From IMG/VR virus record IMGVR_UViG_3300023500_000029, positions 1 to 23,613 of that record: a stretch of DNA of 23,613 nt. The stretch is one strand, 5' to 3'. The DNA is from a virus. The position numbers and the translations under genes were made by a program. Shown in pieces: positions 7,996 through 23,571 of the stretch. Under the pieces are notes generated by a model. It saw only the letters and a list, made by a program, of their open reading frames with translations, was not told the origin of the DNA and did no database searches. The first letter of the stretch is position 1. Each line of letters starts with the position of its first letter.

Positions 7996-9380
7996 TATTT
8001 CTTACCTCTCCCTGAATCTATGGAATAAACATCAGCAACCAAAACATCGTAGCTGAATTCATTTGAAACTTGCAAAAGAGCAACGAACTCGCTAGAATAG
8101 CAAAGGTCACTTCTCATTACGTGGATATTGCCACCAGCCTCATGAACCATAGGGCTATAGTGCTCTGCATAAGCTGTTGAAGTAGAATTGGGAAAGTTGG
8201 CGATTTCTGTCTGAGTCCACGTTATGCCGTCAGACGTTTCCATTATCGAATCAGTAGTACCTAAATTCCACGCCACTAATTTCCCAGAGTCGAATTTATT
8301 GGTTTCAATACGGTTTGGTCGTAGGGGCGGCGTTGTTTCAGAGAAGCTAACACCAAGGTCTGTTGAGACGAGGTGTGCGGTGTGAAGAGTTTCGCAAAAA
8401 AGGCACATGTTTCCGCCCACAAATCTGATAAAAGTAGCTCCTGCAGGCCAACCCGCTGGAATTGCCACCGAATTAACTAGGTTCCACGAGTAACTTCCTA
8501 TAGCTGTTTGCGTAGCTTTATATATTTCAACAACTCCGGAGCTTAATTTATTGGCTATAAAAACCTCTCCGTTATAGTACGAGATTGAGGAAATAATCGC
8601 TGAGGTACCTATGAATGAAGTTGGTTGTTTAGTAATTCCATCGGCATCATATACACAAATCGCAGAATTTGTCCCGTCAGCAAACTGAAATCCTACGAAA
8701 TATTGCCCGTTTATCTTTGCACACGAATACCTTCTTGCTCCACTGTACGCAAACGGAGGTGTGAATATATAAGTTGACGGCGAAGCAGAACCTGCAAGAA
8801 ATTCAACAGAGTCGCCGTAGCCTGCGGTTCCTCGCCCCGTTACGTTGAATATTCCATCAAAATTGCTAAATGTATCGATACCGGTTGCGTTCCCTGAACC
8901 CATAACGCTGTAGTCTGTATTTGTTCCTACAAGTTCAGTAAGGTCCCAGCTTTGCCCTCCGTCAGAGCTTACAAAAACGCCGGTTTTATGAGCTCCTAGC
9001 CACCTACCATAATGAAGAGCCACCAAATTACTTCCCGAATTTCCAATTCCTAAAACGTATGGAGGAGGAGAGATTGAGACTGCAGGCGCGCCTATTGCTC
9101 CAAAGCTAACTGTTCCAGCACCCCAATTTGAAATTGGTGCCTTTGTAAGAGCAGCGTCTACTTTTTTCCCTGGCGCAATAACAGCAAAGCCAGGCTTACG
9201 GTCAAAATCAATATTTGTGTCGTTAGAATTTGCGGGGTCGTCTATAGCCTTGAATTGGTTTTCGGTATCTATTATATCAAAATCACCGCGCTCCGGCCAA
9301 ACATCAACGAACGCAACAGGCTCGTGGCCTGCTGTGCTTTTAATTACTTCAGATATATCGCTAGGTATCTTTAAGGCCAT
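7995..9380 (-). CDS. Tail-tip protein with Asp-box beta-propeller
   Basis: This 461-aa protein has an N-terminal segment (about 1-70: VIKSTAGHEPVAFVDVWP and following) that resembles the start of small tail-tip proteins placed between the distal tail protein and the hub. Residues about 75-430 form a repetitive beta-rich region with Asp-box motifs at 138-145 (SSDGGQSW), 339-346 (STDLGVSF) and 382-388 (TSDGITW). These are typical of sialidase/BNR or YCF48-like propellers. The last 30 residues return to a conserved-looking tail end (VLVADVYSIDSGRGKK). I read it as a short tail protein carrying a large propeller insert. Catalytic sialidase residues are not evident, so sugar binding is more likely than hydrolysis. 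Confidence 0.7.
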   Translation of the reverse strand: MALKIPSDISEVIKSTAGHEPVAFVDVWPERGDFDIIDTENQFKAIDDPANSNDTNIDFDRKPGFAVIAPGKKVDAALTKAPISNWGAGTVSFGAIGAPAVSISPPPYVLGIGNSGSNLVALHYGRWLGAHKTGVFVSSDGGQSWDLTELVGTNTDYSVMGSGNATGIDTFSNFDGIFNVTGRGTAGYGDSVEFLAGSASPSTYIFTPPFAYSGARRYSCAKINGQYFVGFQFADGTNSAICVYDADGITKQPTSFIGTSAIISSISYYNGEVFIANKLSSGVVEIYKATQTAIGSYSWNLVNSVAIPAGWPAGATFIRFVGGNMCLFCETLHTAHLVSTDLGVSFSETTPPLRPNRIETNKFDSGKLVAWNLGTTDSIMETSDGITWTQTEIANFPNSTSTAYAEHYSPMVHEAGGNIHVMRSDLCYSSEFVALLQVSNEFSYDVLVADVYSIDSGRGKK

Positions 9381-9382
9381 TT

Positions 9383-10966
9383 TTATATGAACTCGATAAA
9401 CTTTATTTTTGATTTTTTGTGTACGGGGCTTTGAATTCTCAAATCTATATCCCTGTCCACCTTCATCAAATAGGTTGTGTATTTGTCAGAATCTGGTTGA
9501 AAAACGAACCAAATAGGCTGGCGTGTATTATATACGAAATTGCGGAAGATGTCAATGTTTGAGGCTGTTGAATTATCAATAACGCTCAACCCAAAACTTA
9601 ATTCTAGCCTTTTCCACAAAACGGTCTCAAACAGCCTTCCGTTTTCACTATTGAATTTTTTAATCCCTGAACGAAGAGACTTCGGATCAACGCCATAATC
9701 AACGTGACCTATTTCGAGGTAGTTACCGATAAAGATTTCAGGTATTAAAAAATGACTTTGTGAGGTTAGCCCTGAGATATTAAGCCTATACCTGTAGCTC
9801 AAAAAGAAATTTTCAAGAGACGTTGCTGTGGAAGCAAAAAAATCGATTCCATTACTTGCCAAATCTATAGGCGAGCCTGAGATTGAATATGAAAGCTGGG
9901 AATAACTAGTTCCGTTATTTACAGAGGTAAATATGAGGCCGGTGTTTGTAATAGTTACCAATTCGGAATCGGTAACAACAATCTGTTGGTATGAGCTTCC
10001 GCCGCTGTCTATAGTATCAAAATTTACATAGTCCTCGCTTTTTCTTATAAGTCCATTACTTCCGCACGCATAGTAAACGCCATTATAAACCACCGCGTCG
10101 CTAATGGAGCCTAACGCAAGGGCGAGACCTCTGGTGAAAGTTGAGAGGTCGTCAAAACTGGAGTAGGTTTCAACATTTGAGCGAAGTATATAAGCGAATT
10201 GCGAGTTGTCAATTCCTAATATATTGGTAAGAACTGGGAAGGGGCTTATGACAGCGCTGAAAGTAATTAGGTCAGTACTCTGCCAAATCTCATTGCTTTC
10301 ACCAACAACCACAAAGCTTATGAAGTTAGTAGCCACCCCGTTTAAATTAGAGGCTGTTATTGTTTGCGAAGTCCATGCAGTTCCGTCAAAATAAGAGAAA
10401 ACGCCAGCGTTACCGCATAGCACAAATTTGTCTTCCAATCCTTTCACGTCATTATAGATTCCTGCCGGAATTGTAAAATCCTGAGTCCATGCATTGCCGT
10501 CTGTTGAAGTATAAAATCCTGTTCCTGCTGAATCTATGGCCGCGAATCGGTCACCCGTCCAAAACAATTTTTTGAATGTAGGCGCTCCTACTATGGTCGT
10601 TACTGCTGTAGGCACCGCCAGAGTGTGAGCTGGTAAATAGTTAAACATGCTTTCGTTCTGGTGAATGAAAGAGCCCGATTTGATACTTGAAAAGGCTGTG
10701 CCGTCATGAGCTTGCAGGTCAAAATTAAAATCAATCGTGCGGCCGGATTCATCGTACCTATGTTCGCCAAAAATTACACATTGAGCTGTGCTTGAATCAA
10801 CACTCAGGTCAATGGTTGCATTTCCTGCGGCATCGGCTTGCAAGATAAAACCGTTAGCCGCGTCGTTATTAAAAACTGAGTAGATGTCACCAATATCCCG
10901 CCCGTTCGTAAGAACCGCCGAATTTATATGGTTGTTAAATGCTACCTTTGGGATGTCTGTGGCCAT
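9383..10966 (-). CDS. Distal tail-like protein with beta-propeller insert
   Basis: The N-terminus of this 527-aa protein (about 1-110) looks like a discoidin-type or jelly-roll domain (FNNDAANGFILQADAAG, later TIDLSVDSS and GEHRYDESGRTIDFNF). Residues 125-390 hold about six blade-like repeats with Asp-box-like turns at 153-160 (TSTDGNAW), 192-198 (YFDGTAW), 229-236 (QSTDLITF) and 309-316 (KSEDYVNF). The C-terminal 130 residues (FLIPEIFIGNYLEIG onward, with RQPIWFVFQPDS) resemble the tube-side end of distal tail proteins. Its position right after the tape measure fits a Dit-like adaptor. It starts after GAGG with a 10-base spacer and is the first gene after promoter 10994-11022. Confidence 0.68.
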   Translation of the reverse strand: MATDIPKVAFNNHINSAVLTNGRDIGDIYSVFNNDAANGFILQADAAGNATIDLSVDSSTAQCVIFGEHRYDESGRTIDFNFDLQAHDGTAFSSIKSGSFIHQNESMFNYLPAHTLAVPTAVTTIVGAPTFKKLFWTGDRFAAIDSAGTGFYTSTDGNAWTQDFTIPAGIYNDVKGLEDKFVLCGNAGVFSYFDGTAWTSQTITASNLNGVATNFISFVVVGESNEIWQSTDLITFSAVISPFPVLTNILGIDNSQFAYILRSNVETYSSFDDLSTFTRGLALALGSISDAVVYNGVYYACGSNGLIRKSEDYVNFDTIDSGGSSYQQIVVTDSELVTITNTGLIFTSVNNGTSYSQLSYSISGSPIDLASNGIDFFASTATSLENFFLSYRYRLNISGLTSQSHFLIPEIFIGNYLEIGHVDYGVDPKSLRSGIKKFNSENGRLFETVLWKRLELSFGLSVIDNSTASNIDIFRNFVYNTRQPIWFVFQPDSDKYTTYLMKVDRDIDLRIQSPVHKKSKIKFIEFI

Positions 10967-10993
10967 TTTCTTAATACCTCTTTGTTGTTTGTA

Positions 10994-11022
10994 ATTGTAG
11001 CGCTTTAATTATTTTTTGTCAA
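10994..11022 (-). promoter_or_regulatory. Sigma70-like promoter for tail-tip genes
   Basis: The -35 element TTGACA (11017-11022) and -10 element TACAAT (10994-10999) are separated by 17 bases, about 28 bases before the start of the 527-aa gene. A 7-bp dyad (CTGTTAC at 11024-11030, GTAACAG at 11041-11047) abuts the -35 box upstream and could bind a regulator. Confidence 0.7.
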
Positions 11023-11025
11023 GCT

Positions 11026-11310
11026 GTTACTTTTAAAAAGGTAACAGAGTGAAAAAGGTAACGCAAAAGGTAACGCCCTGATTCGTTTGGTAGCAACGTT
11101 TTGCGGGGTTTGTTACCTTTTTGGCTGCCGTTACTGTAAAAATACAGACGAGTTGATATTCTTCAATATTATAAAAAAATACTGAATATATGCAGAGCCT
11201 TATCTATAAATCTATTTGGTAACATATATATATAAAAGAGAGCTTTTTTGAGGCTCTGCCTTATATTCAGCCGTTTCTTATTCGTTACCAACGCGTTACC
11301 TTCATGTTAC
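11026..11310. repeat. GGTAAC/GTTACC repeat array
   Basis: GGTAAC starts at 11040, 11057, 11069 and 11218. GTTACC starts at 11112, 11284 and 11295. The shorter GTTAC core is at 11026, 11130 and 11306. AAAAGGTAACGC is perfectly tandem at 11053-11064 and 11065-11076. The 10-mer AAAAGGTAAC also occurs at 11036 and, inverted, at 11112-11121. Copies at 11284, 11295 and 11306 are exactly 11 bp apart. About 0.6 copies of the 5-mer core would be expected by chance in 285 bp counting both strands. Confidence 0.85.
11182..11270. repeat. Imperfect 19-20 bp inverted repeat
   Basis: The left arm CTGAATATATGCAGAGCCT (11182-11200) is matched by the reverse complement of 11251-11270, CTGAATATAAGGCAGAGCCT, with 18 matching bases and a one-base indel. 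The arms flank 50 bp that include one GGTAAC site. On the minus strand a smaller hairpin, AGAGC...GCTCT followed by CTTTTAT, competes for the same arm and could act as a weak terminator after the tape measure gene. Confidence 0.75.
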
Positions 11311-11323
11311 TAAACTGACCAAC

Positions 11324-14083
11324 TTACGCTACGGCAAAATTCTGTCCGCGATCAAACGAAGACTGCAAGACGGGGGCTAGTCGGTCGCCGATGCTCTGCA
11401 TAGTAGTTTCATCGATTGCGGCAGGGTCAAGCGCCTGAATTGTTAGGTTAACCTGAGCTCCAGCCTGCTGAGCTGGCTGTGCCGATTCCTGTGTTGAGGA
11501 TGGTGAAGGCGGCGTTGGAATGCTCGGCGCGGAAGAGGCTGAAGGTTTAGCCCCTCCTCCGAATTTTGTCGAGGCGATTTTTGAAATATTAGCAACACCC
11601 ATGGCCGTAACAACGCCCGCCATTACTGGCCCCAGAATAGGCCCCAAGCTTAACGCTTGTGTAGCGCCCTGTATTGTTGAGATTGTAGCGTTTGCAATTG
11701 CGGCAACTTTACCAGCCTCAAACATTTTCCTGTTTCCTGAATCCATCAACCCAGAAATTACTCCGAGGCCAGCCTGTGTTACGGCAACCTTGCCGTCAAA
11801 ACCGCTCTTCCACAACTTTTGGGAATTATCGGCAAATTTCTTTGTGTCACCGAATAATTTAGAGAAGTTTGCGTTGGTTATGTTATTTTGTAACGCGCCA
11901 AATTCAGAAGCAAGGTCAGCGCCTCTATTCTTGAAGTCTACAATTATATCTTCTTTTGCCTGTTCGAATTCAGTAAGCTTTTCTAATTCAAGGGTTCGCT
12001 CTTCATCTTGTAGAGATATGAATTCGTCTTTTCTAGCAATCTCTAATTCAGCAAAGGCGAGTCTTCTTTCTTCAATTATAGCAGACTTGCCATCTTCATG
12101 AAGACCAAGCGCTACAAGTTCCAAATCAAATTCGGAACGTTTTCTATCTTGAGAGATTGCAAACGCATCGGCATCTATTGCTCTCTTTTCAGCATTAAAT
12201 GCCTTTTGTGCAACAATCCGAGAATCTATTCCTGACAGCGAACCGCTATCTACTGGTGCAGACTTAAATTTTAGGCTTGCCTTCGCCCTTCTTGAGGCGA
12301 TCAAAGCGTCCTGAAGCTGCTGGTCTTGAGATATTGCAAAAGACTTAATCCGCTCGTTTTTTCGCGCTTCAATTTCCTCCTCTCTTTTTGCCTTATCATT
12401 AAACGATTTGACTCTTTTCCTATTCTCAAATTCAGAGAACGAGGTAAATGCCTTATCTATTGCAATAACTTGCGCGGAACCTTCTCCGTGAATAGATACA
12501 ACTTTCGCCCTTTCAGTTGCATATTTTTTTGTAAGGCGTTCAAGCCTTGAGGTTGTAAGTTTTGAAATTGAGGCTATGAAGTTTTTGGAGCTAGCAGCCG
12601 CAGCGTTCATGAAAAGCGGTAGCTTGCTAAATGCCTGCTCCACCGCTTTCCGATTCTTATTTTTAGCCAATTCGTCGAAGCTTATTCCAATATTTTCCAG
12701 CTCTTTCCTGAATGGCTTAAGTGCTAAAATCTTACTATCTAGGTCGGCCTTTTTGAATACTGAAAGCGCTCGAATTACATTTTTGGCATTTTCAAATGTA
12801 CCTTTTGACGCTGAACTTGTTGTGATATTTAAAGATTTTAATTTTGCGTCGAGGTCTTTCCCTACGATGCCGAGTTTTCTATATTTTTCTATTAAAGTCT
12901 CAAGGTTTGCGTTTACGAGAAGATTAGACTTGATAGCCGCCAACCTATTACTTTCTGCAGTCGCATCGGCCTGCTCGTTCAATTTTATAACGTCGTACAA
13001 TTCTTTTAATTTAAGTGAAGTGAACCCAATAACAGCGGCCAGAGCAACAAAGGGTGCAGCAGCAGCTCCTACAGTTGCGGCAAGAGCTATAAGACTGGGT
13101 GCCGTGGCTATTTCCATGAAAGCAGTGGTTGCAAATGTTGCAATCACAGCGCTATTTCTCAAAACTATAAAACCAGCGCCTACTGCCGCAAGCGTTTCAG
13201 GTAAACCTCCGAGAGGAGCTGAAAGAGCAAGAACAACGCTAGACATTGTTTTGATTTCTTTTGTAGCGCCAACTATTCGAGGGGTCAATTCGTTTAATGT
13301 ATTTGCAAAACTGGCCATCGCAGGCGCAAGCTCAAGGCCAACAGAGGAGGTGATCAAGAATATAGAATTGTCTATCTTGTTCATACTGCCCTGTAAAGAG
13401 TCAGCCGCCTCTGAGGCCGATCCTCCCAAATCCTTTTTGAGCTGAGCGGCAAATTTAGGAAGAAATTCAGCGGACATTAGTTTACCAGTTGACATTAGTT
13501 TGTCAAGTTCCGTGGTTGTAACGCCCATGGCTCTGGCTGCTATGCCAAAAGCTCCAGCAAGGCCAGCGTCGCCTAGTTGGTTACGTAATTCTTCCGCCGA
13601 AACCTTGCCCTTTGACATAATTTGTTCAAGTGCTTTAAAAATTCGCTCCGAATTATTTGCGTCTAGTCCCATAGAAGCAACTGCGGCCGAGACATCTGAG
13701 AAGATTTTGGTAGCTGCTTTTCCTTCGATAATAGTGCCTCTTGTTGAGGCGGCAAATGAACCGAACGAATCAGCGGTTCTTGAAAGATTTAGGCCGTAAA
13801 GTTTAACGATTTCATTTACGCTTTCGAATGCAGCCTTGGAATCTCCGGTAGCAACAGACAGCTTTCGCTGTATTCTTTCAAACGTAACAGCAGACTCTAC
13901 AGATTTATCAAATGCCGATTTCAAAGCAACGAACGAGACGGTTGCACCCGCAAGCCTTTTAAAGCTAGCGGATGTTTTATCAACCTTTTCGTTCATTTTA
14001 CCCAGTTTTTTATTTATCTGGTCTATGTTAAGGCTCAAATTCTTCGAGTCACCAACGAATTTTATCTCAAGATTTTTATTCAT
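11324..14083 (-). CDS. Tail tape measure protein
   Basis: This 919-aa protein sets tail length and is carried inside the tail tube. The N-terminal 240 residues carry the classical tape-measure domain (SVESAVTFERIQRKLSVATG, then GLNLSRTADSFGSFAASTRG, LRNQLGDAGLAGAFGIAARA, and a segment like LMSTGKLMSAEFLPKFA). Hydrophobic Ala-rich segments lie near 310-360 and 795-850. A long charged coiled-coil region (about 540-750) precedes a Pro/Ser-rich linker and a short C-terminal domain. From the usual 0.15 nm per residue I would expect a tail of about 140 nm. The start has AGGTGA six bases upstream. It follows the chaperone frameshift product by 16 bases, the standard siphophage order. Confidence 0.92.
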   Translation of the reverse strand: MNKNLEIKFVGDSKNLSLNIDQINKKLGKMNEKVDKTSASFKRLAGATVSFVALKSAFDKSVESAVTFERIQRKLSVATGDSKAAFESVNEIVKLYGLNLSRTADSFGSFAASTRGTIIEGKAATKIFSDVSAAVASMGLDANNSERIFKALEQIMSKGKVSAEELRNQLGDAGLAGAFGIAARAMGVTTTELDKLMSTGKLMSAEFLPKFAAQLKKDLGGSASEAADSLQGSMNKIDNSIFLITSSVGLELAPAMASFANTLNELTPRIVGATKEIKTMSSVVLALSAPLGGLPETLAAVGAGFIVLRNSAVIATFATTAFMEIATAPSLIALAATVGAAAAPFVALAAVIGFTSLKLKELYDVIKLNEQADATAESNRLAAIKSNLLVNANLETLIEKYRKLGIVGKDLDAKLKSLNITTSSASKGTFENAKNVIRALSVFKKADLDSKILALKPFRKELENIGISFDELAKNKNRKAVEQAFSKLPLFMNAAAASSKNFIASISKLTTSRLERLTKKYATERAKVVSIHGEGSAQVIAIDKAFTSFSEFENRKRVKSFNDKAKREEEIEARKNERIKSFAISQDQQLQDALIASRRAKASLKFKSAPVDSGSLSGIDSRIVAQKAFNAEKRAIDADAFAISQDRKRSEFDLELVALGLHEDGKSAIIEERRLAFAELEIARKDEFISLQDEERTLELEKLTEFEQAKEDIIVDFKNRGADLASEFGALQNNITNANFSKLFGDTKKFADNSQKLWKSGFDGKVAVTQAGLGVISGLMDSGNRKMFEAGKVAAIANATISTIQGATQALSLGPILGPVMAGVVTAMGVANISKIASTKFGGGAKPSASSAPSIPTPPSPSSTQESAQPAQQAGAQVNLTIQALDPAAIDETTMQSIGDRLAPVLQSSFDRGQNFAVA

Positions 14084-14099
14084 TTAGTTTCACCTGTAG

Positions 14100-14767
14100 C
14101 TATTTTTTTCGAATCGATTCATTGTACTCATCCCATACAGAACCCACGATCGAAATGCCATGCATTAACAGGCAAGGCTGCCCTAATCCACCGCCGTCGT
14201 ACGGAAGTATGTGACGAAATTCATAGTCGTTAAAGCACTGGAATAACGTATTCATTTCTCCGCTCATGTCAAGTACAGGGCAGGATTTTGACGATACTGA
14301 GGTAAGATTCCAATCGAATTCGTAGTCTCTTATGCATTTACCAATGCCCTCTCTATCTTCCTCTTTGGGCATTTTGCCACAGTCACTAAGCGTGCATTTA
14401 GAGCATTTTTTGCCCTCAACCCAAGCCTGTGCTGTGGCTCTTATTTTTTTTCTTCTTCTTCGCTTATTCTATTGGCTACTGAACACAACTCTCCAACGGC
14501 TATGTACGTTTTCAAAGAATTATTATCTGAAAGGTCTGCATAGTTTGCAAACTTTTCAAAATCAACATCAACACCGTCAACGCTCAACTTAGTGACGCAG
14601 TTTTCCAATGCATATTTTCCCAATTCAATCCGGTCGCTAAAGTGTTGGCTAGATAACAGCTCAAGCATATGGCTCTGCTGGCTTGTTGTGAACTGTTTAC
14701 ATTTTCCTTTTATTTTAAGCTCTTTGTCTTTAATACTGTACTCGCTTTCTTTTAGAAATTTCACCAT
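14100..14767 (-). CDS. Tail assembly chaperone GT-type fusion by -1 frameshift
   Basis: Ribosomes reading the upstream chaperone meet a run of eight A (minus strand, 14444-14451) directly before its TAA stop. A -1 slip there enters a frame that stays open for 114 codons, to the TAG at 14100, giving a fusion of about 222 aa. The extension begins IRATAQAWVEGKKCSKCTLS (a CxxC-x5-C cluster) and includes HILPYDGGGLGQP and VWDEYNES, similar to the PGGLLDQ-containing ends of other chaperone extensions. The only internal start, ATG at 14372, lacks a convincing ribosome site, which favours the frameshift. As in lambda G/GT, the fusion would link the tape measure to tube subunits. Confidence 0.75.
14441..14767 (-). 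CDS. Tail assembly chaperone, G-type (short form)
   Basis: This 108-aa acidic protein (start MVKFLKESEYSIKDKELKIK, end RISEEEEKK) binds and stabilises the tape measure before tube assembly. A longer in-frame start exists at 14839, but it lies inside the terminator hairpin, so I chose the ATG at 14767, which has GGAG nine bases upstream. The gene sits between the tail tube and tape measure genes, as expected. Its terminal codons GAA-GAA-AAA-AAA-TAA form the slippery site for the longer product. The body shows alternating helices, typical of these chaperones. Confidence 0.8.
   Translation of the reverse strand: MVKFLKESEYSIKDKELKIKGKCKQFTTSQQSHMLELLSSQHFSDRIELGKYALENCVTKLSVDGVDVDFEKFANYADLSDNNSLKTYIAVGELCSVANRISEEEEKK
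14444..14451 (-). promoter_or_regulatory. Slippery A8 run, -1 ribosomal frameshift site
   Basis: Eight consecutive A on the minus strand lie immediately before the stop of the short chaperone (GAA-AAA-AAA-TAA). The A-AAA-AAA heptamer permits -1 re-pairing, and the -1 frame continues to 14100. No obvious strong hairpin follows within ten bases. Confidence 0.7.
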
Positions 14768-14808
14768 TTTGGTATTCTCCACTTTGTTTGGGTTATTTTT
14801 TTTAAACG

Positions 14809-14837
14809 AAAAAGGGGCTCCTCTTTCGAAGAACCCC
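14809..14837 (-). terminator. Intrinsic terminator after the tail tube gene
   Basis: A 10-bp stem (arms 14837-14828 and 14823-14814 on the minus strand, GGGG pairing with CCCC and a GAAA tetraloop) is followed by TTTTT at 14813-14809. It would end transcripts from the tail-tube block. The promoter at 14838-14866 overlaps it, with its expected start site inside the first arm. Confidence 0.8.
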
Positions 14838-14866
14838 ATACTATCATTAATTGCGCATTAAGTCAA
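14838..14866 (-). promoter_or_regulatory. Promoter for chaperone/tape-measure block
   Basis: The -35 element TTGACT (14861-14866) and -10 element TAGTAT (14838-14843) are separated by 17 bases in the short gap after the tail tube stop. Transcription should begin near 14831, inside the first arm of the terminator stem, so its own transcript could not form the full hairpin. Confidence 0.6.
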
Positions 14867-14868
14867 TA

Positions 14869-15774
14869 TTAAGAAAACGTTAATATAAACTGGTCATCGC
14901 CAACGCTTTCGTAAAGCCTGTAAGATGTCTCTAGGATATCCCTTTCAGCTCTTTCTGCGTACGCCATGCTTTCTTTACGAGCTACGGGAAAGCTAGCAGA
15001 GAACTGATTACCTACAGAGCCGAAGGTGAAACTGATAGCAGCGTCAAGCCCTGCAGCAAGACCATCCCATTCAGCGGTTGAGGAAACCGAGTCCTTTGTG
15101 ATGGATGCCGTTGGATTTCGATCTGCAATCTGAAAAGAATGCTCACCAATGACATAATGCTCTTGCAAATCCACACCATCGTCAAATGATAAAGCCGCCA
15201 CTTTGATATTGCCCAAGTTTTCGGTTGCAACGTCAACGTTGTTAGCGATAATCGGCTGTGAAGCCTGATAAACAGCTCCGGCCGGTAGCGCTGTGGCTGT
15301 TGGTGCAGTATAAAGGGCTTGCATTGTGAACTTTAAAACGGTAACCTGCCCGATTGTTGTTTCGAATGTCATCTTGCCCTTTCCGCCGATTAATTTCCAA
15401 AGCTTGCCGTCTTTGTATACGTAAATCGTACAGGTTTCGGCGGAGGTGGTTGAAGGTTCGTAGGTAACATCAACGCCAGCGTTTACAGTTTCAACAAGTC
15501 CGCACGCTTTAAGCAACGGGGCGAGTTCTGGTGAAGTACCCGCAGCGCCGGAGCCTTTTAGCTCCACTTCAATTTCAGCCGTAGCTGTCTTTTTACCAAT
15601 CATATGCGGAAGCATACCCATGGTATTTTTGAGAACCTTGCGGTCGATCGCCTCAATGTTGGGTGTAATGTTTGCCGTAATAACTCTGATTGCATTAAGT
15701 GCAGGCGTAGGAATGGAATCCGTACCAGCAACTGGTTCAATCTTTGTCAATATCAGGCGGTCAAAAATGCTCAT
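14869..15774 (-). CDS. Major tail tube protein
   Basis: This 301-aa beta-rich protein starts MSIFDRLILTKIEPVAGTDS, followed by PTPALNAIRV (23-32), a block common in siphophage tube proteins. A GKGKMTFETTIGQVTVLKFT strand pair (about 132-151) and a C-terminal domain with PTASITKDSV and ESMAYAERAERDI fit the two-strand-layer tube fold. GAGGAG lies seven bases upstream, and the ATG shares its A with the stop of the 36-aa gene (TAATG). A terminator follows it closely, so the gene may be highly expressed from upstream. The family call is strong from size, place and fold pattern. Confidence 0.82.
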   Translation of the reverse strand: MSIFDRLILTKIEPVAGTDSIPTPALNAIRVITANITPNIEAIDRKVLKNTMGMLPHMIGKKTATAEIEVELKGSGAAGTSPELAPLLKACGLVETVNAGVDVTYEPSTTSAETCTIYVYKDGKLWKLIGGKGKMTFETTIGQVTVLKFTMQALYTAPTATALPAGAVYQASQPIIANNVDVATENLGNIKVAALSFDDGVDLQEHYVIGEHSFQIADRNPTASITKDSVSSTAEWDGLAAGLDAAISFTFGSVGNQFSASFPVARKESMAYAERAERDILETSYRLYESVGDDQFILTFS

Positions 15775-15884
15775 TATTTAGTCTCCTCGGTTTTGTTCTT
15801 TTCTTTTATTCTCTCATCTCTGCGTAGAAATGACTCTGTACGAGTCTCCACAGATTTAGCGGGTGCTGATTTAGTCTTAGCCAT
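15774..15884 (-). CDS. 36-aa basic hypothetical protein
   Basis: This small ORF (MAKTKSAPAKSVETRTESFL and onward, ending NKTEETK) fills the gap between the tail terminator-like gene and the tail tube. It has a near-perfect GGAGG eight bases upstream of its ATG, placed over the end of the preceding gene. Its stop overlaps the tube ATG (TAATG). It is Lys/Arg/Glu-rich and probably helical or disordered, with no known family. The strong ribosome site and tight overlap make translation likely. It may help load or chaperone tube subunits, but that is a guess. Confidence 0.7.
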   Translation of the reverse strand: MAKTKSAPAKSVETRTESFLRRDERIKEKNKTEETK

Positions 15885-15885
15885 T

Positions 15886-16305
15886 TTATAATCCTCCGGC
15901 CATAGTTCCTTCAAAGGTAATCCTAAGAGGTCGTTCGAAATAGCCGTACGGTGCGAATTTGCTACCGCTTCGTTCAGTGTACGGTAATATTCGAATTATA
16001 GCCACATTTCCGCCCAGTGTCAAGTCTGAAGATATTACTTTTTTAAGTTCATCGTCCAAATTATTCAATGCAGTTGAAACTCCACCGATTTGGTTGACGT
16101 ATCCGATTATATTAATGTCAAAGCTGATATCTGCAAATCCGCCGGTCTTCCAAGCATACTCTTCTGCGCCATCGTCTTCTATGATTACAGCGGGGAATTG
16201 AGTGGTCGCAATATCATCAATAGGGCGAAATTCTCGCGTCACTAATTTAATACCTTTCATACCTTCAAGCAGTGACTTGATTAATACAAGAATATCTTCA
16301 CGCAC
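15886..16305 (-). CDS. Tail terminator/completion-like protein
   Basis: This 139-aa protein starts MREDILVLIKSLLEGMKGIK. It has a central strand region with FPAVIIEDDGAEEYAW (38-53), a helix with LNNLDDELKKVISSD (81-95), and a C-terminal FAPYGYFERPLRITFEG strand pair. This helix-strand-strand-helix-strand layout, size and position before the tail tube match tail terminator proteins of the lambda U or Mu gp37 type, which cap the tube and join it to the head. It overlaps the preceding connector gene by eight bases. Confidence 0.68.
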   Translation of the reverse strand: MREDILVLIKSLLEGMKGIKLVTREFRPIDDIATTQFPAVIIEDDGAEEYAWKTGGFADISFDINIIGYVNQIGGVSTALNNLDDELKKVISSDLTLGGNVAIIRILPYTERSGSKFAPYGYFERPLRITFEGTMAGGL

Positions 16306-16759
16306 GGAATACTCTCCTGCCGTTGTTTACTCTACGCTCTAAATCTGAAAATTGACTATCACCATTGAAGTCGTACAACGCCAACAGCTTGACGATTGAC
16401 CATTCTTCGCTATACATTTTTTTGTAAAATTCAGATTTGCGGCTAAACGAATCACCATCGGCATCTTTCATGGTTGACATTTTTGGGTAAATGTATGCGT
16501 ATGCAGCGCGGTAAATTGTTAACTTCTTAAGAACCGCTGAATTAAGTCGAGTAACATCAAGTGGTATAAATGCGTAAAAAGACAAGTCAGTATTCTCACG
16601 TATAAAGGTTGACCTTATCGCGCTGGGGTACCATGAGGATTTTATTAAGTTAATAATATCCTCTTCAGCATTAGCCAAATCATTAGTAAAATCATTATGA
16701 CCATGCCGAAAAATGTCAGGCATAAAATCCTGCAGGTCAGATTCTGTCGCGAATGCCAT
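16298..16759 (-). CDS. Head-tail connector/adaptor protein
   Basis: This 153-aa mainly helical protein starts MAFATESDLQDFMPDIFRHG, contains LANAEEDIINLIKSSW (28-43), and has a long helix LKKLTIYRAAYAYIYP (77-92) followed by an acidic D-A-D-G-D turn. Such all-helical 140-160-aa proteins that start with an AT-x-x-DL motif and lie just downstream of the capsid gene are usually gp6/gp15-type adaptors or Mu gp36-like (DUF1320) proteins. It would bind under the portal and offer the surface for the tail. I am confident of the class by position and helicity, not of the exact family. Confidence 0.65.
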   Translation of the reverse strand: MAFATESDLQDFMPDIFRHGHNDFTNDLANAEEDIINLIKSSWYPSAIRSTFIRENTDLSFYAFIPLDVTRLNSAVLKKLTIYRAAYAYIYPKMSTMKDADGDSFSRKSEFYKKMYSEEWSIVKLLALYDFNGDSQFSDLERRVNNGRRVFRA

Positions 16760-16765
16760 ACCTTA

Positions 16766-16987
16766 CTACTTCGTATTCTTTACTTTGGCTTTTGTTGTTG
16801 CCGTTTTCTTCGCAGTGCCTTTAACAATTTCAGCGCCGTATCCGAGCGTTAAAGTTTTGACCTGTGCTTCTGTTGCATCTAGTTCAGAAAAAAGAGTACC
16901 AGCGCCGTCACTAACAAACACAACTCCGCCCCTAGATATTTTAGTGCCTTTCGCAACATGTTCATAACCCTTAAATTCAAATCTCAC
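16766..16987 (-). CDS. Small head protein, GTG start
   Basis: This 73-aa protein starts at GTG, with AGGAG six bases upstream. Residues 1-45 form short strands (KGYEHVAKGTKISRGGVVFV, later a GTLFSEL turn), and the C-terminal 20 residues are a Lys/Thr/Ala-rich basic tail (KKTATTKAKVKNTK). It sits directly after the capsid terminator and before the connector. Small SH3-like or decoration proteins are often found here, and the basic tail may touch DNA or the capsid. The function is not recognised. No clear promoter is visible after the terminator, although TTAATATATATTAA (a perfect palindrome) lies just upstream. Confidence 0.62.
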   Translation of the reverse strand: MRFEFKGYEHVAKGTKISRGGVVFVSDGAGTLFSELDATEAQVKTLTLGYGAEIVKGTAKKTATTKAKVKNTK

Positions 16988-17044
16988 AATATTCTCCTTT
17001 TGTTTTGTAAAGGCTTCCCTTTTTAATATTAATATATATTAACA

Positions 17045-17080
17045 TTAAAAAAGGAGGGGCTTCCGCCCCTTCCTCTTTAC
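17045..17080 (-). terminator. Strong intrinsic terminator after capsid gene
   Basis: The core stem AGGGGC-GGAA-GCCCCT (minus strand, 17070-17055) extends through GG/CC and A/T pairs with one bulged A and is followed by TTTTTT (17052-17047). It lies about 15 bases after the capsid stop, as expected for a highly expressed gene. Confidence 0.85.
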
Positions 17081-17094
17081 CTATTTAGACCTTC

Positions 17095-18003
17095 TTATTT
17101 TACACCGGTCAATTTAGCAAGGCCGCGCCTGTTGTATGAGGCAAAACCAGCATACCACTTAACACGAGCTAACTCATCGTCAGTCTGTTCTTTACCGCCA
17201 AGCATCTGAACCTTGATGCCAGCATCGCCTTCAGGATGGATTCCAGCAACACCGATCTTACGCGTGCCGTCATCGAAACAACCAGCAAAAACTTCGGATT
17301 CGTTAAGACCAATACCGCCGTTGCTAGGAATGAAATCATTGCGGAACATTGGGATGCCATTGAAAGAAGTCACTTTGCGCCCTGATTCGAGCGTCACTTC
17401 TTCACCTGAAACACCGCCCAAACCTCTCAAGTAAGAACGATACAGACGAATTACTTTAGAAGTAGTCATCAAAAAGTCAACATCGCCGTCTTTAGCCAGA
17501 ACCAAATCAAGCAATGCGTCCAAATCGTCAACAAGAGCAGCGCCACCGGCAGCAGTAGAAGCGGCAATCTGAACAGGGTCAACAAGGTTAGTCATTCCGT
17601 TAAACTGCGGGGCAACACCAGTTCCGGAAACCATAGCCTGCTGAAACTGACGGGATACGGATTTAGCTTTTGAGCTAATTTCCACAGCCATCTGGTCAAC
17701 GTTAGCGGAAGAGCTTGTTGCCTGAACCAAGCCATTAACTTCAGCGTCGCCGATAATGCTGGTTGGGAAGAAAGTTACAGGGGTAACAGAAGAAGCGTTT
17801 TTTGAAGTGATAGTGTCGCCAACACCATAAAATGCCGCGTCACCAAGCGCGAGCTCTCTGTTTACAGTTACCGATTGGCCGGTAAAGCCGTCGAACGGTA
17901 TAACGTCCATGATTGGGTTAACGCTGATGATATCTTCAGCAACGCCAACAACCAAATCATCCTGAATGAGTTTTGCCGCTTCTAGTAAAGTTTGTGTAGC
18001 CAT
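17095..18003 (-). CDS. Major capsid protein (HK97-fold type)
   Basis: This 302-aa protein forms the icosahedral shell. The N-terminal helix (MATQTLLEAAKLIQDDLVVG) precedes strands with INP-x-MD-like text (NPIMDVIPFDGFTGQSVTVN, 29-48). The long spine helix covers about 100-130 (VDQMAVEISSKAKSVSRQFQ). Also seen are DFLMTTSKVIRLYRSYLRG (175-193), FNGIPMFRNDFIP and GIHPEGDAGIKVQMLGG, phrases I know from about 300-aa phage capsids. There is no N-terminal delta domain long enough to act as scaffold, which agrees with a separate scaffold gene upstream. AGGAG lies nine bases upstream. It has its own promoter, a 150-base structured leader and a terminator. Confidence 0.88.
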   Translation of the reverse strand: MATQTLLEAAKLIQDDLVVGVAEDIISVNPIMDVIPFDGFTGQSVTVNRELALGDAAFYGVGDTITSKNASSVTPVTFFPTSIIGDAEVNGLVQATSSSANVDQMAVEISSKAKSVSRQFQQAMVSGTGVAPQFNGMTNLVDPVQIAASTAAGGAALVDDLDALLDLVLAKDGDVDFLMTTSKVIRLYRSYLRGLGGVSGEEVTLESGRKVTSFNGIPMFRNDFIPSNGGIGLNESEVFAGCFDDGTRKIGVAGIHPEGDAGIKVQMLGGKEQTDDELARVKWYAGFASYNRRGLAKLTGVK

Positions 18004-18165
18004 TTTTGTATTCTCCTAATAGAATAATTTTATTTTTTTGTTATCTTATTAGGTCAGCCTCTAGCCAAACCTAAATTTTTGAAGTACCAGACTTCTGCGG
18101 TATATTTTAATTTGTATGCCGCAGATATAACCTCTGCGGATTTCTTTTGCAAAACAAGTGGTGCG
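18004..18165 (-). promoter_or_regulatory. Structured leader of the capsid mRNA
   Basis: From the predicted start near 18160 to the ATG at 18003 the mRNA would have about 157 untranslated bases without any ATG. Two sets of three arms can pair in competing ways. The first set is CCGCAGA (18139-18133), TCTGCGG (18125-18119) and CCGCAGA (18100-18094). The second is TTAGGT (18074-18069), ACCTAATA (18054-18047) and TATTAGG (18021-18015), the last of which overlaps the AGGAG ribosome site (18017-18013). The arrangement suggests translational control or RNA stabilisation. Confidence 0.55.
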
Positions 18166-18185
18166 GATTATACCACCCGCACCAC
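18150..18185 (-). terminator. Possible terminator overlapping the capsid promoter
   Basis: A 9-bp inverted repeat (GTGGTGCGG at 18185-18177 on the minus strand, CCGCACCAC at 18166-18158) is followed by TTGTTTT. Transcripts arriving from the scaffold gene could form this GC-rich hairpin and stop. The loop is exactly where the capsid -10 box lies. It could equally be an operator dyad. Confidence 0.5.
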
Positions 18186-18195
18186 CTTATGTCAA
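18167..18195 (-). promoter_or_regulatory. Consensus sigma70 promoter of the capsid gene
   Basis: TTGACA (18190-18195), a 17-base spacer and TATAAT (18167-18172) match the consensus at every position. The -35 box begins five bases after the scaffold stop. A 9-bp dyad is centred on the -10 box. Confidence 0.82.
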
Positions 18196-18199
18196 CTAC

Positions 18200-18934
18200 T
18201 TATGAGCTACGGCGGGCAGCAATGCCTTTGGCAATTTTCTCACGAGTTGATAATTCTGCTTTTGAACCTTTACCTGTTCCACCGGTTGAGCCTGCGCCAG
18301 ACCCTGCAGACTTCACTAAATGAGGGCGGGATTCGATAATTCCAGAAACAACTTGCTCAACTGTCAAAGGATTACCTTCGCCATCAGTTGCTATATCGCC
18401 ACCTTTTTGAACGCGAACCTTGCCATTTTCATCAACAGAGATAGAATAAGCAGCTTTTGCAATTGTGACAATATCATTAGAATCAACGGCATTATTTGCC
18501 TTTGCGAGGTTTGAAATGCTGTCGTCTACGATTTTAGTCTCATACATGCCTTTCCATTTAGTTGCTTCGTTTTTGCCAGCCTCAATTTGTTCGGTTAATG
18601 TTTTTGTTTTTTCTTCCAGTAGCTTATCATAATCACCACGGGCAAGGGCTTCCTTTTCCTTTGCTTTAGCGGCTTCCTCTTTCATCTTTTTGAATTCGTT
18701 GGCATCAAACCCTTCTGTTTCAGTCCGAAGGTCACGGAGTTGAGTGCGATATTTCGCGGCATCTTCACGCGCTTCCTTCAGTTTTGATTCGGCCTCTGAT
18801 CCTGCGTTACTTGAACCAGCTCCTGCATCATCGTCAGAAGTTGAGCCGCCTGCGATATAAGGAACATATTCGCCATCAGGCATTAGCCAATGTTTTTTTG
18901 ATTTGTGTATTACTATCTTAGGATTGTTTGACAT
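18200..18934 (-). CDS. Capsid scaffold protein
   Basis: This 244-aa protein should guide procapsid assembly and leave before DNA entry. After a short N-terminal segment (VIHKSKKHWLMPDGEYVPYI) and a Ser/Gly/Asp-rich linker, residues about 46-125 are a highly charged coiled coil (ESKLKEAREDAAKYRTQL, then FKKMKEEAAKAKEKEALARG). A compact middle domain (130-185) follows, and a Gly/Ser linker leads to a basic C-terminus (LSTREKIAKGIAARRSS) that would bind the coat protein, as in other GPO/GP20-like scaffolds. GGAG lies nine bases upstream, and it has its own promoter at 18993-19021. No protease motif is seen. Confidence 0.8.
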   Translation of the reverse strand: MSNNPKIVIHKSKKHWLMPDGEYVPYIAGGSTSDDDAGAGSSNAGSEAESKLKEAREDAAKYRTQLRDLRTETEGFDANEFKKMKEEAAKAKEKEALARGDYDKLLEEKTKTLTEQIEAGKNEATKWKGMYETKIVDDSISNLAKANNAVDSNDIVTIAKAAYSISVDENGKVRVQKGGDIATDGEGNPLTVEQVVSGIIESRPHLVKSAGSGAGSTGGTGKGSKAELSTREKIAKGIAARRSS

Positions 18935-18992
18935 TTTTATTTTCTCCGGTTTGCTTTATTATTCAGCGGTACTTTTTTTAGCTGGTTTGCGT

Positions 18993-19021
18993 ATTATAAC
19001 CATATAGACCTGACAAGTCAA
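18993..19021 (-). promoter_or_regulatory. Sigma70-like promoter for the scaffold gene
   Basis: TTGACT (19016-19021), 17 bases, TATAAT (18993-18998) lie in the 99-bp gap after the Mu F-like gene. Its upstream edge shares the 13-mer ATAAGTAGTTGAC (19017-19029) with the capsid promoter (18191-18203). A tandem ATAGGCAT repeat lies just upstream, over the stop codon. Confidence 0.72.
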
Positions 19022-19033
19022 CTACTTATATGC

Positions 19034-19750
19034 CTATATGCCTATGACAGGGCTGAAATGATGGCGGCATCTCCAGCCACCTCTGACAATAAAAGGGTCG
19101 CCTGATTTCTTGCCCTGCCATGAGATTCCAGCCCACGCCGTAATTTGCTCACGAGTGAATACCTTACCCACATGACTAACACACCACGGCCTAGAATCTC
19201 CGATCAGATTGCCTATATATTTGTATTTGGTTACACCTGCATCGTCACCTTTTTTAAGCATTAAAGTGGCATCCACTTCCATCGTAAACGTGTCAACCTC
19301 AGTGTCTAATACTGAAAGCATAGAGCGTCCGGCCACATTAGGCTCCGGCAATATGAGCGCGCTTAATTGAGCAGGTAAAAGTTTATTGTCAATACTTTTT
19401 GAGCTATACAATAATTGCGTAAGCTTGTGCTCATACGAAGCCCTTACTCCTTGCATATTACTAAGCGAGGCCTGCTGCATTGCTAGCATAAGATCGTTAT
19501 CAGAAGCGTCATACAGTAAAGGAATACCTTTAGATTTGAATTCGGTTTTTATTCTCCGGCCGATATCATTAAAGTTTGTCACGTTTTGCTCAATGGAAAG
19601 CATGCCGCTCATAGTTCCTTTGACAAGTAGAAGAATATCCGAATACGATAAGCTGGTCAGGTCAAGCGTTGAAAGTATAACAACAGCCCGTTCAATCAAA
19701 ACGAGTTCCTCGCCTACGATTGACAGCCTTTTCTTAACTATTTCGGTCAT
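19034..19750 (-). CDS. Minor head protein, Mu F/SPP1 gp7-like
   Basis: This 238-aa protein is mostly helical over residues 1-160. The C-terminal domain holds IGDSRPWCVSHVGKVFTREQ (183-202) and then GDPFIVRGGWRCRHHFSPV (217-235). The D-x-R-x-x-C-x-x-H...G-x-R-C-x-H pattern is the signature of the Mu F/SPP1 gp7 minor head family, which binds the portal and enters the capsid, probably via a metal-binding knot. It is shorter than many family members, which often exceed 300 aa. Its start overlaps the previous stop (ATGA). An alternative is a stand-alone C-terminal domain of a split protein. Confidence 0.75.
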   Translation of the reverse strand: MTEIVKKRLSIVGEELVLIERAVVILSTLDLTSLSYSDILLLVKGTMSGMLSIEQNVTNFNDIGRRIKTEFKSKGIPLLYDASDNDLMLAMQQASLSNMQGVRASYEHKLTQLLYSSKSIDNKLLPAQLSALILPEPNVAGRSMLSVLDTEVDTFTMEVDATLMLKKGDDAGVTKYKYIGNLIGDSRPWCVSHVGKVFTREQITAWAGISWQGKKSGDPFIVRGGWRCRHHFSPVIGI

Positions 19751-20214
19751 TTCAACTCTCTCAGTACATTCTTCTCGTATTGTTTGAAGAACCTACTTTT
19801 GTCTTTTTCATTTAACCAGAAGAAATTCCTTTTTGGAACCCCTACTCCGTTGACATGCCTAGACGCTTTTTCTTGCTCTGATTTTCTTGTAAATCCAATA
19901 ACGGCGGTGCTTTTAACTGTACCAGACTTCTTTTTTGCCTGAAGGCTTGCCATCATATGACCCTTGTCAAATAAGTCAACCTTTCCAGTAAAGTGCCGCC
20001 CACCCCTCTTTCTCTTTTGCTTTAAGGTTTGTGTAGCGTACTCTTTAAAAAATTTTCCGTCAGTGTCTCGCCCTTTCAAAGTCCTCTCTTTTATAAACGT
20101 CGTAGCAGCAAGGGCTACCTTTAAGATTGCCCTTTCATTTGCAGATATAAGCCTTTTTTTTCTTCGGATCATATCTTTTACTACTTCGCTTATGTTACTC
20201 GTTACATTAGCCAT
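19747..20214 (-). CDS. Phage virion morphogenesis protein (gpG/gpS-like)
   Basis: This 155-aa basic protein begins with helices (ISEVVKDMIRRKKRLISANE). The middle segment FTGKVDLFDKGHMMASLQ (75-92) is similar to the T-G-x-L-x-x-S-x-x-x pattern of the PF05069 virion morphogenesis family. It ends with VPKRNFFWLNEKDKSRFF, where family members have a P-x-R-x-F-LG-L-x-x-D phrase. In P2 (S) and Mu (G) such proteins act in head-tail completion. Here it lies between portal and the Mu F-like gene, rather than after F as in Mu. It overlaps the portal end by eight bases and the next start by four. Confidence 0.68.
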   Translation of the reverse strand: MANVTSNISEVVKDMIRRKKRLISANERAILKVALAATTFIKERTLKGRDTDGKFFKEYATQTLKQKRKRGGRHFTGKVDLFDKGHMMASLQAKKKSGTVKSTAVIGFTRKSEQEKASRHVNGVGVPKRNFFWLNEKDKSRFFKQYEKNVLRELK

Positions 20215-21637
20215 TATTCAATCCCGTCAAATCTGTAGATTTGCCAGTATCCTGTTTCCCCGAATCTTTTACCATCACCTCAACCTCTTCGATAGTTGCC
20301 GATTCTCCGAGTACCCTTGATATAATTTTGCGAGAGGCCTCTTCTTTAAATTTAAGGCTATTAACAAAAGAATCTGCTTTCATAATCGTATCAAGCTCCA
20401 TACCCAAATCACGAACTCCGAACCTGCGGGTGTACTCAATAGAGCCAGCGTAATCCATGCCATTCCATAGCGCTAAAAGGTTAAAAATTGCCATCTCAGT
20501 GTTTTCCATTGCCTCCGCTTTTTCAGAAAGCACAGCGTTTAACTGCTGGAACCTAAGTTCAAGACTAATACCAGATTCAGCATTACCACCCGTCTTTGTT
20601 GAATCAGTCCCGCCTATTTTGGAATGGTACCGAATATCTTCCAGCGTCTGGTTTCTCCATTGTAATATTGAGTCAAGAGACTGGCCAGAAGGTTCTACAT
20701 ATCTATGACCACCGCCGCCAGCGCTTCCATCAGGTTCGTATTCGAGTACGTTAGTTGTGCCAATTTCAACATCGCCAGAATCTCCGCCAACGTTTGGCAG
20801 TCTAGGAACTTCTAAAAATGGGAACGCCGTGTTTTCGATTATTTCCATAGCTGCCGAATCGAATTGATAGACGCGCTTGTTTAATTCTGCTATATCAATA
20901 ACGTCAGACGCTCCGGAGTCTTCAAGCATGCCGTCTTTGTTTTTGTGAAATACGAACGGAACAGTACCAAGGTTGTGATCGCCTTGAGAAATAAATACAG
21001 GCTGACCTCTCGCCTTCTTCTTAAACCTAAAAAATTCGGTTCTAGTATATATGACGTAATGCTCGTAAGCGCCTTCGCTAAAGTCCTCATGCAGTACAAT
21101 CATGTCCAAAATAGGCCGTCCTGTGCTGTAGTCAAAAATCATATTGATTATATTCTCAAGCGTATACAGCTTTGTATATGTATGCAACCCGTTAGAAAGG
21201 TCTGAACCAAGATTGCCCGTCAAATTTGAGGGTGAGTCAACTAATATACCAACCGAACCAAGCAGGGCAGCTAAGCGAGAAATTTCACGCATTACCTTTG
21301 AATGGCTCCTGCCCTCTAAATCAGCATCGTCAGAATAAGCCTCATATAGTGCGGGATTTATTCCTTCATTTGTACGCGTTACCTTGTCTTTATGCAGGTA
21401 TGAATTATAAATGTCAATTATCGGGCTGACATAATTCGTATAGACAGCCTGTTTCAATCTCCTGCCGAATGACTTTTTAGCCTCTCGCACATGACGGATC
21501 AAAAACTCGCCTTCACGGTATTCTTGTCCGCCAACGTATGACTTCTTAAGGAATTCCTGCTCGTTCTCATGCTCAGCGAGCTCCTTGCCTTTCTTTAGCA
21601 ATTCCTTCACTTCTATACCGTTAATTTTAAATGCCAT
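20207..21637 (-). CDS. Portal protein
   Basis: This 476-aa protein would form the dodecameric DNA channel at one capsid vertex. It starts MAFKINGIEVKELLKKGKEL, has a DIYNSYLHKDKVTR helix, a GILVDSP strand and VLHEDFSEGAYEHYVIYTR in the wing. ELNKRVYQFDSAAMEIIENT and PFLEVPRLPN lead to the stem/clip, and the crown region includes SLELRFQQLNAVLSEKAEAM. An upstream in-frame TTG at 21670 lies within the terminase gene. I prefer the ATG at 21637 because GGAG lies seven bases before it. Size, order and motifs match DUF4055/SPP1-like portals. Confidence 0.85.
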   Translation of the reverse strand: MAFKINGIEVKELLKKGKELAEHENEQEFLKKSYVGGQEYREGEFLIRHVREAKKSFGRRLKQAVYTNYVSPIIDIYNSYLHKDKVTRTNEGINPALYEAYSDDADLEGRSHSKVMREISRLAALLGSVGILVDSPSNLTGNLGSDLSNGLHTYTKLYTLENIINMIFDYSTGRPILDMIVLHEDFSEGAYEHYVIYTRTEFFRFKKKARGQPVFISQGDHNLGTVPFVFHKNKDGMLEDSGASDVIDIAELNKRVYQFDSAAMEIIENTAFPFLEVPRLPNVGGDSGDVEIGTTNVLEYEPDGSAGGGGHRYVEPSGQSLDSILQWRNQTLEDIRYHSKIGGTDSTKTGGNAESGISLELRFQQLNAVLSEKAEAMENTEMAIFNLLALWNGMDYAGSIEYTRRFGVRDLGMELDTIMKADSFVNSLKFKEEASRKIISRVLGESATIEEVEVMVKDSGKQDTGKSTDLTGLNNG

Positions 21638-21657
21638 TACTGAACTCCATTTTTTTA

Positions 21658-23004
21658 CTACTGTAGCCAAACCTTTCTATTTGTCAATATGCGCCCAATT
21701 GGAAATATGTATTCAACTGGGTACCCAAACGCATCTATCATATGCGTAAGGTTTCCCTTCACTGCTCTTTCCTGTTTAGCCAAATCCTCGTGGTTCATTT
21801 GCTCCAACCCTTTGATTAGCATTGTGCAAGACGCATCGATATAGATGCCCATATCTGCGAATTTGCTATTGACCGCATTATACCGATCCCTTTTTGTCGG
21901 GTGCGCTCTTCTACATACAGCTTCGAACCCAGCGGATTCTATCAACTTCTTGTCGGTTTGTCCAGCTTTCGCTGAAGTTCTCCGCTGAATACATGCCGGA
22001 TCGGGGAATATTATCCTACACCTTTCACCAAATTCATCTATTATCATATTACACGCTTCGCTCGTATCCGAGTTGTTAAGAGCATACTCCTTAAAAAAGA
22101 ACAGTTTGTCGCCGCGTCTTACGAATGCCACGAAGCTCATTGGGTTTACGTTGAAATCCATCCCAACGTATATAGTTTCGTCTTTTCCAACCTCAACCTT
22201 CGTTACGTGTTTGGAACGTTCAAAAGCATAGTAGATCATGCCAGTCGAAAGATTTACAAACTTACCCTCTTCATAGGCTTCCCTCATTTTAGGGTCAACA
22301 CCCGCAAACATCGTATCGAGAGCCTGCTTTGGTAATGCTTTATTTGCATATGTAGGCGCGTTGATTACCTCAATGTCATACATGTCATGTTTGTCACCTG
22401 CGCAAATATCATAGCCCCAATTCAATTGCTCAGGGGTTCCGGTTAATACGATCTCCCTATGTTTTGCCATAGGATCGCGAACACGAGCCTGCATCTGAAC
22501 GAATACGCTCTCGTCTTGAATAAAAGGCTCATCTATAATTGCGGCGCATATATTTGGCCCCTTTAACGATTCGGGATTCTCTCCGGATCGTATCCAAATT
22601 TTTCCATGTCTACCGTTGTGGAAAATGTTGAACTCAAATTCTGATTTGTTATATTTGTATCTTATTCTGCGGGCGTTAAGTATTTGCTGAATAGTAATGA
22701 CTACCGTTCCGCGTGCTTGTTTGTAGTTTGGGCTTACTACCATGACGGGCGAGGGTGCATTGTGTAAAGCGAGAGCAATACCCCGCTTTGCTGCGTATAG
22801 AGTTTTGCCAGCTCCGTAACCGCCAACCAGCGCCTTTATAAATGCCGAAGAGTTCCACATTTTTCTCTGGTGCGAGAACATGCCGCCCTTAATTACCGCG
22901 CCGGTTTCTTCGCAAACGATTGGGTCTTCAAGCCTGAAGAATTTGCTTTGCTTATTGGAAACTATTGACATATTAAAGGGTGCCCTGTTATAGATATGCT
23001 TCAT
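21658..23004 (-). CDS. terL: Terminase large subunit
   Basis: This ATP-driven DNA packaging motor and nuclease shows, numbered from a TTG one codon upstream of the ATG used here, Walker A at 62-69 (GGYGAGKT), Walker B at 153-161 (ICAAIIDEP, Asp159/Glu160) and the coupling motif LTGTP (188-192). The RNase H-like nuclease has Asp284 (VGMDFN), Asp336 (FPDP) and Asp424 (HMIDAFGY). The length (about 448 aa) is normal. The ATG at 23004 overlaps the small subunit by 17 bases and has no clear ribosome site. The ATG at 22971 (MSIVSNKQ), 16 bases after the small-subunit stop, is an equally good start, so translation may be coupled. Confidence 0.93.
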   Translation of the reverse strand: MKHIYNRAPFNMSIVSNKQSKFFRLEDPIVCEETGAVIKGGMFSHQRKMWNSSAFIKALVGGYGAGKTLYAAKRGIALALHNAPSPVMVVSPNYKQARGTVVITIQQILNARRIRYKYNKSEFEFNIFHNGRHGKIWIRSGENPESLKGPNICAAIIDEPFIQDESVFVQMQARVRDPMAKHREIVLTGTPEQLNWGYDICAGDKHDMYDIEVINAPTYANKALPKQALDTMFAGVDPKMREAYEEGKFVNLSTGMIYYAFERSKHVTKVEVGKDETIYVGMDFNVNPMSFVAFVRRGDKLFFFKEYALNNSDTSEACNMIIDEFGERCRIIFPDPACIQRRTSAKAGQTDKKLIESAGFEAVCRRAHPTKRDRYNAVNSKFADMGIYIDASCTMLIKGLEQMNHEDLAKQERAVKGNLTHMIDAFGYPVEYIFPIGRILTNRKVWLQ

Positions 23005-23386: not shown

Positions 23387-23420
23387 AATGTAAGATTTTC
23401 CTTGTGTAAGTCTTTGCTGA

Positions 23421-23555: not shown

Positions 23556-23571
23556 TCCTAGGGTCTCCTTT

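Follow-up and report, generated by a model that had tools for sequence, protein, structure and literature searches.

A conserved GGTAAC box array in the tail module of an uncultured phage resembles the iteron clusters of phage replication origins

Introduction

The initiators of several phages and phage satellites recognize short repeated boxes at the site where replication starts. P4 alpha binds repeats at its origin (PMC4234260), Rep of the SaPIs binds iterons of the kind described below (PMC7581432), and a position 3' of the initiator gene is a defining feature of the SaPI/VapE-type origins (PMC6092414, PMC7581432). In uncultured phages origins are rarely annotated. Here we describe a box array in a virus fragment of 23.6 kb (G000; IMG/VR record IMGVR_UViG_3300023500_000029), the whole of which is referred to as the window. 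The array shares its layout with the origins of VapE phages and P4 and is located among tail genes. As it does not lie 3' of an initiator gene, we call the site origin-like and assign it to none of the named systems. Among the papers searched, none combines GTTACC with iterons or GGTAAC with phage origins.

Results and Discussion

The late genes of the window, comprising terminase, portal, scaffold, capsid, tail proteins, tape measure, further tail genes and lysis, are all encoded on the minus strand, and the array lies in a gap between two of them:

10967..11323, minus strand: non-coding island with the whole iteron array region, in the gap between the tape measure gene and the gene of a 527-aa tail-module protein
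11324..14083, minus strand: flanking tape measure protein gene (PHROG 2335, E 4e-33)
9383..10966, minus strand: flanking 527-aa tail-module gene, no PHROG match and no known family

No conserved ORF was found in the island (10967..11323), an Rfam search of the window gave no match, and neither a transposase nor a second copy of the island is present within the window. GC skew, the inspection of which had been proposed in the preliminary description of this DNA, and third-position skew across the window show no clear switch at the island, which argues against an origin. In a comparison with named phages the large terminase was at best ~45% identical to that of Vibrio siphophages, the two tail proteins tested had no protein match and the island DNA had no meaningful match (short chance matches with E 0.4 only).

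A recount of the boxes agreed with the composition given in the preliminary description, namely ten GTTAC/GTAAC cores within 285 bp (11026-11310), a perfect tandem 12-mer (AAAAGGTAACGC on the plus strand at 11053-11064 and 11065-11076), four copies of AAAAGGTAAC (11036, 11053 and 11065 on the plus strand, 11112 on the minus strand) and three boxes spaced exactly 11 bp (11284, 11295, 11306). The helical phasing proposed along with it, with a protein on one face of the DNA, does not extend to the array as a whole, as the remaining box spacings are 65, 89, 18, 42, 12, 17 and 15. Read on the minus strand the boxes follow the order >>><>><<<> with >> 42 bp << as the core, and together with the adjoining promoter the island consists of the following parts:

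11284..11310, minus strand: three GTAAC boxes with 11-bp spacing (11306, 11295, 11284)
11135..11283, no strand: AT-rich stretch (76% AT in the largest gap free of boxes), interrupted by a single GTTAC box at 11219-11223, possible melting region
11181..11271, no strand: inverted repeat, potential long hairpin (DNA fold z = -5.2), in this phage only
11112..11134, minus strand: forward iteron pair, GTAAC at 11130 and 11112, the second being AAAAAGGTAACA
11075..11111, minus strand: spacer between the convergent iteron pairs, 42 bp box to box, a spacing as in VapE-phage origins
11089-11103, within this spacer: spacer element CAAAACGTTGCTACC
11058..11074, minus strand: reverse iteron pair, GTTACC at 11070 and 11058 (the tandem 12-mer of the plus strand)
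11026..11045, minus strand: inverted box pair GTTACCTTTTTAAAAGTAAC adjoining the promoter
10994..11022, minus strand: sigma-70-type promoter TTGACA-17-TACAAT for the downstream tail gene (11/12 consensus matches; consensus match only)

The densest 285 bp of the window hold 10 boxes, compared to a maximum of 5 in 300 dinucleotide shuffles. GGTAAC occurs 20 times in the window (6.5 +/- 2.7 per whole window in the shuffles), and with 7 of these 20 copies inside the island the hexamer is not equally dense elsewhere; equal density would have spoken against a special site. No comparable array was present in 80 capsid-relative loci, none of which had more than 5 boxes per 300 bp.

To follow the island in other phages, relatives were sought by the tape measure, tail and 122-aa proteins (the last of these encoded in the relative described here), and G001 (IMGVR_UViG_3300007777_000032, 29.5 kb) alone was returned with the island. 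The evidence for conservation thus comes from one relative, and both G001 and the window are fragments. The tape measure protein of G001 is 46% identical to that of the window and its 527-aa tail protein 73%, and the same gap aligns with the island over its whole length, so that the island is not missing from the only relative found; its absence from related phages was the second outcome named in the preliminary description as speaking against the site. Island identity amounts to 73%, with 65% and 69% in the flanking coding stretches, and the boxes are better conserved than the rest (47 of 50 box bases identical versus 214 of 307 other island bases, i.e. 70%; P = 1e-4). Order and spacing (18, 42, 12, 17, 15) of the six boxes nearest the tail gene are exactly the same in G001, including an identical iteron pair at 11112..11134 with its 18-bp spacing and both boxes of the inverted pair at 11026..11045 with their 15-bp spacing. 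The 11-bp-spaced boxes 11306, 11295 and 11284 read GTAAC, GTTGC and GTAGC in G001, and the AT-rich stretch is 79% AT there. We rejected the hairpin in the AT-rich middle as a shared part, since it is strong in the window (z = -5.2) and absent in G001 (z = +0.6); where the window has part of it, G001 carries a 20-bp AT-rich tandem repeat, AATAGATTAATAGATAGGAT (L002:9021-9088). Another locus with a related tape measure (L003) has no such gap, no relatives were found in bacterial genomes, and a strict 21-base palindrome pattern, sought in three records, had no match.

The contig of G001 stops within a second GGTAAC array (L086:14396-14450), in which GTTACCTTTTTTATCGTTT is repeated three times at 19 bp as a same-orientation direct repeat that probably broke the assembly. 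G001 therefore has two separate repeat clusters, the island and the array at the contig end, while one is visible in the window. The second array is located directly before the ribosome-binding site of the 122-aa gene. Behind this gene come a 75-aa ORF and a replication-module gene for a 139-aa nuclease-like protein matching PHROG 2165 and 93; the sequence breaks off before the position expected for an initiator. The arrays of G001 and L097 are each accompanied by small ORFs, and those of the one are unrelated to those of the other. At its left end G001 also shows a 22-nt direct repeat, CATCTTAATGTACCTTTTATTC (L085:1-59).

When viral contigs were scanned for three closely successive GTTACCTTT-type boxes, 43 stretches matched. 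Replication initiators are frequent among the genes next to them, namely Rep_3 with ParA in phage-plasmids, VapE, PrimPol/PriCT-2/DUF5906 and other primases, while some of the stretches are coding repeats or have no recognised initiator. Among the matches listed for bacterial genomes the GTTACCTTT pattern likewise occurs beside Rep_3, VapE and primase genes, and the GTTACC clusters listed there also include many Prevotellaceae chromosomal repeats without an initiator. Because of these chromosomal and coding repeats the motif alone is no proof of an origin, and the GTTACC arrays of L105, L123 and Palleniella, being coding or chromosomal repeats, were left out of the count. In the Palleniella, Prevotella and NALB_7861 genomes (L154, L155, L161, L164, L168 and other loci) GTTACCTTT clusters with 22-23 bp units number in the dozens and are scattered over the chromosome, and no initiator was found with them; NALB_7861_17, labelled Bacillota, shares this Palleniella/Prevotella repeat family. 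Rep_3 phage-plasmids and Firmicutes plasmids (L095, L119, L106, L156, L157, L244) have 21-22 bp iterons that share the AAAGGTAACA core with D5/VapE-type arrays, although the initiator family is different. The PrimPol of L112 had no relatives besides L112 itself.

In the reverse direction, the VapE of L257 served as the protein reference by which 29 VapE loci were collected, regardless of arrays; L257 itself had been found through its array. In 10 of 24 scored loci (L257 aside) the 500-bp window around the vapE 3' end holds 7-10 copies of one phage-specific ARG-NNN-AC box, with at most 2 copies in any other 500-bp window of the same loci; their box cores are TAGAC, TTGAC, TATAC and TTTAC. In several other loci the box differs slightly (GTTACA, AGTAAC, TGTCAA, GAAACA and others) and is present in 6-12 copies, L281, L282, L283 and L293 have no array, and in four Bacteroidales phages whose VapE proteins are more distant no boxes were seen. 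Taken together, many VapE phages have a phage-specific AARG-NNN-AC box in 7-12 copies adjoining the 3' side of vapE, compared to no more than 2 of any such box in other windows. In whole contigs the vapE-adjacent array forms one main cluster per contig. Convergent boxes are 42-45 or 53-56 bp apart, two classes that differ by about one helical turn, and in two named phages, Paenibacillus Pd_22F and Bob, 10 boxes lie in the interval from vapE to a nuclease gene (VRR-Nuc in Bob). As the VapE loci share ancestry, their agreement does not represent independent cases, and we settled on the box forms and the spacing thresholds in the course of the analysis. 3' of vapE in L272-L300 the middle three bases of AARG-NNN-AC vary between phages (TAG, TTG, TAT, TTT or GTA before AC), which, judged from the sequences, looks like a recognition code between initiator and iteron.

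The core >> 42 bp << of the island is also present in G001, and such a core arises in ~1% of random placements of ten boxes, by a criterion that was set once both the VapE loci and the island had been seen. A spacer element derived solely from VapE loci has a match inside the island spacer (rank 22 of 47,198 window positions), which is weak by itself, and again a weak one in G001 (rank 8 of 58,872), which is not independent of the window.

That the boxes are far above chance and more conserved than the rest of the island speaks for a site bound by an initiator, while the lack of an initiator gene in the window and a position that, unlike that of SaPI/VapE origins, is not 3' of such a gene speak against an origin. 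Weighing both, we consider the island to be probably an iteron cluster (core AAAGGTAAC, both orientations) for the phage replication initiator, at which replication would start or which would serve as a crr-like second site required by the initiator. The initiator would most likely be a primase-helicase of the VapE/D5/P4-alpha-like kind. What the sequences show are the array and its conservation, the second array of G001, the layout common to the island and the origins of VapE phages and P4, and the link between such arrays and initiators in other genomes. The presence of an initiator of this kind in the phage, its binding to the island and the firing of the site we infer; no initiator gene, Rep_3 included, was found in the window, which is a 23.6-kb fragment. 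As in P4 and the SaPIs, the initiator would bind the island boxes, the AT-rich stretch would then melt and a helicase would be loaded at the opened stretch, while the promoter on the side of the array might ensure that the tail genes downstream are transcribed despite the interruption of the late operon.

The main rival is an operator role for this adjoining tail promoter, in which a phage regulator would bind the GGTAAC boxes at the tail-gene promoter as well as at the promoter of the 122-aa gene in G001, activating or repressing them. The sigma-70 promoter starts only 3 bp from the last box of the inverted pair and is conserved, as the corresponding position of G001, again between array and tail gene, reads TTTACA-17-TATACT, and the second array of G001 lies just before a ribosome-binding site; all this would suit transcription control. 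Near-perfect sigma-70 sequences on the coding strand of the late genes are also found at 18195-18167, 16023-15995 and 19021-18993 (minus strand), and promoter-like sites in 9000-23613 are more frequent than expected (48 vs 28), suggesting from sequence that the late genes are read from host-type promoters. However, strong late promoters such as 18195-18167 and 19021-18993 have no boxes nearby, which speaks against a site for general late activation, an operator would not usually have its boxes scattered over 285 bp on either side of AT-rich DNA, and same-box arrays in unrelated phages adjoin initiators. Transcription control as the explanation thus appears unlikely to us, and it may coexist with an origin, as an initiator could act as its own regulator.

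The other functions that the preliminary description had listed fare less well than the replication site, the one of its options that the evidence supports, and packaging and partition gained no positive evidence. A centromere-like partition site, at which a ParB-type protein would bind the boxes and segregate a plasmid-like prophage, is very improbable: some phages with GTTACC arrays are indeed phage-plasmids with ParA, but their arrays have the Rep_3 iteron form (21-22 bp direct repeats), unlike the island, and no par gene was found in the window or in G001. That the island is the scar of a mobile element or a functionless chance repeat is highly improbable, even if the inverted repeat around the AT-rich middle occurs in this phage only; box positions kept in a relative whose tape measure is 46% identical largely contradict it, as do boxes more conserved than their surroundings and the lack of a transposase or second copy. 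Recognition by the small terminase as a packaging site is likewise highly improbable, since the terminase genes are 10 kb away from the island and such arrays are linked to initiators and not to terminases in other phages, although next to the large terminase gene there is one for a small HTH protein.

More tentatively, we propose as possible a lineage with a two-site replication system, in which the replication module has an iteron array of its own and an origin-type array separates the tape measure from the tail genes of the late operon, next to a tail promoter. In wider terms, phage origins may form a family of common layout in which the middle bases of the box depend on the initiator. An origin inside the tail operon would raise the question how late transcription and replication starts are kept apart. 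The AARG-NNN-AC box family together with the 42-45 or 53-56 bp core offers a sequence-based way to find VapE/D5-type phage origins, and it allows one to ask how each initiator reads the three middle bases.

Conclusion

Compared with the described systems, the island is similar to the annotated ori and crr of P4 (NC_001609) in having short boxes in both orientations around AT-rich DNA, with three type-1 repeats at 10 and 11 bp in the P4 ori and three boxes at 11 bp in the island, and P4 has two separate repeat clusters per genome, as has G001. The P4 type-1 box, however, is GGTGAACA and differs from the island box GGTAAC/GGTAACA, and crr adjoins the alpha gene while the island is located among tail genes with no initiator seen. 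Rep_3 (PF01051/PF21205) origins of phage-plasmids and Planococcaceae-type plasmids share the AAAGGTAACA core with the island, but their arrays are same-orientation repeats at 21-23 bp beside the Rep_3 gene, in contrast to the mixed orientation and variable spacing of the island; the second array of G001 is likewise a same-orientation direct repeat (19 bp). The origins of VapE phages such as Pd_22F and Bob have AARG-NNN-AC-kind iterons in both orientations and AT-rich DNA like the island, with the same spacing class of convergent boxes (42 bp in the island) and a similar spacer element. SaPI/PICI elements are grouped with these origins, and the likeness of the boxes was established with the VapE loci. 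VapE/SaPI origins are found directly 3' of the helicase gene, whereas the neighbours of the island are the tape measure and a tail gene. One VapE locus, L257, carries the same AAGGTAAC box as the island.
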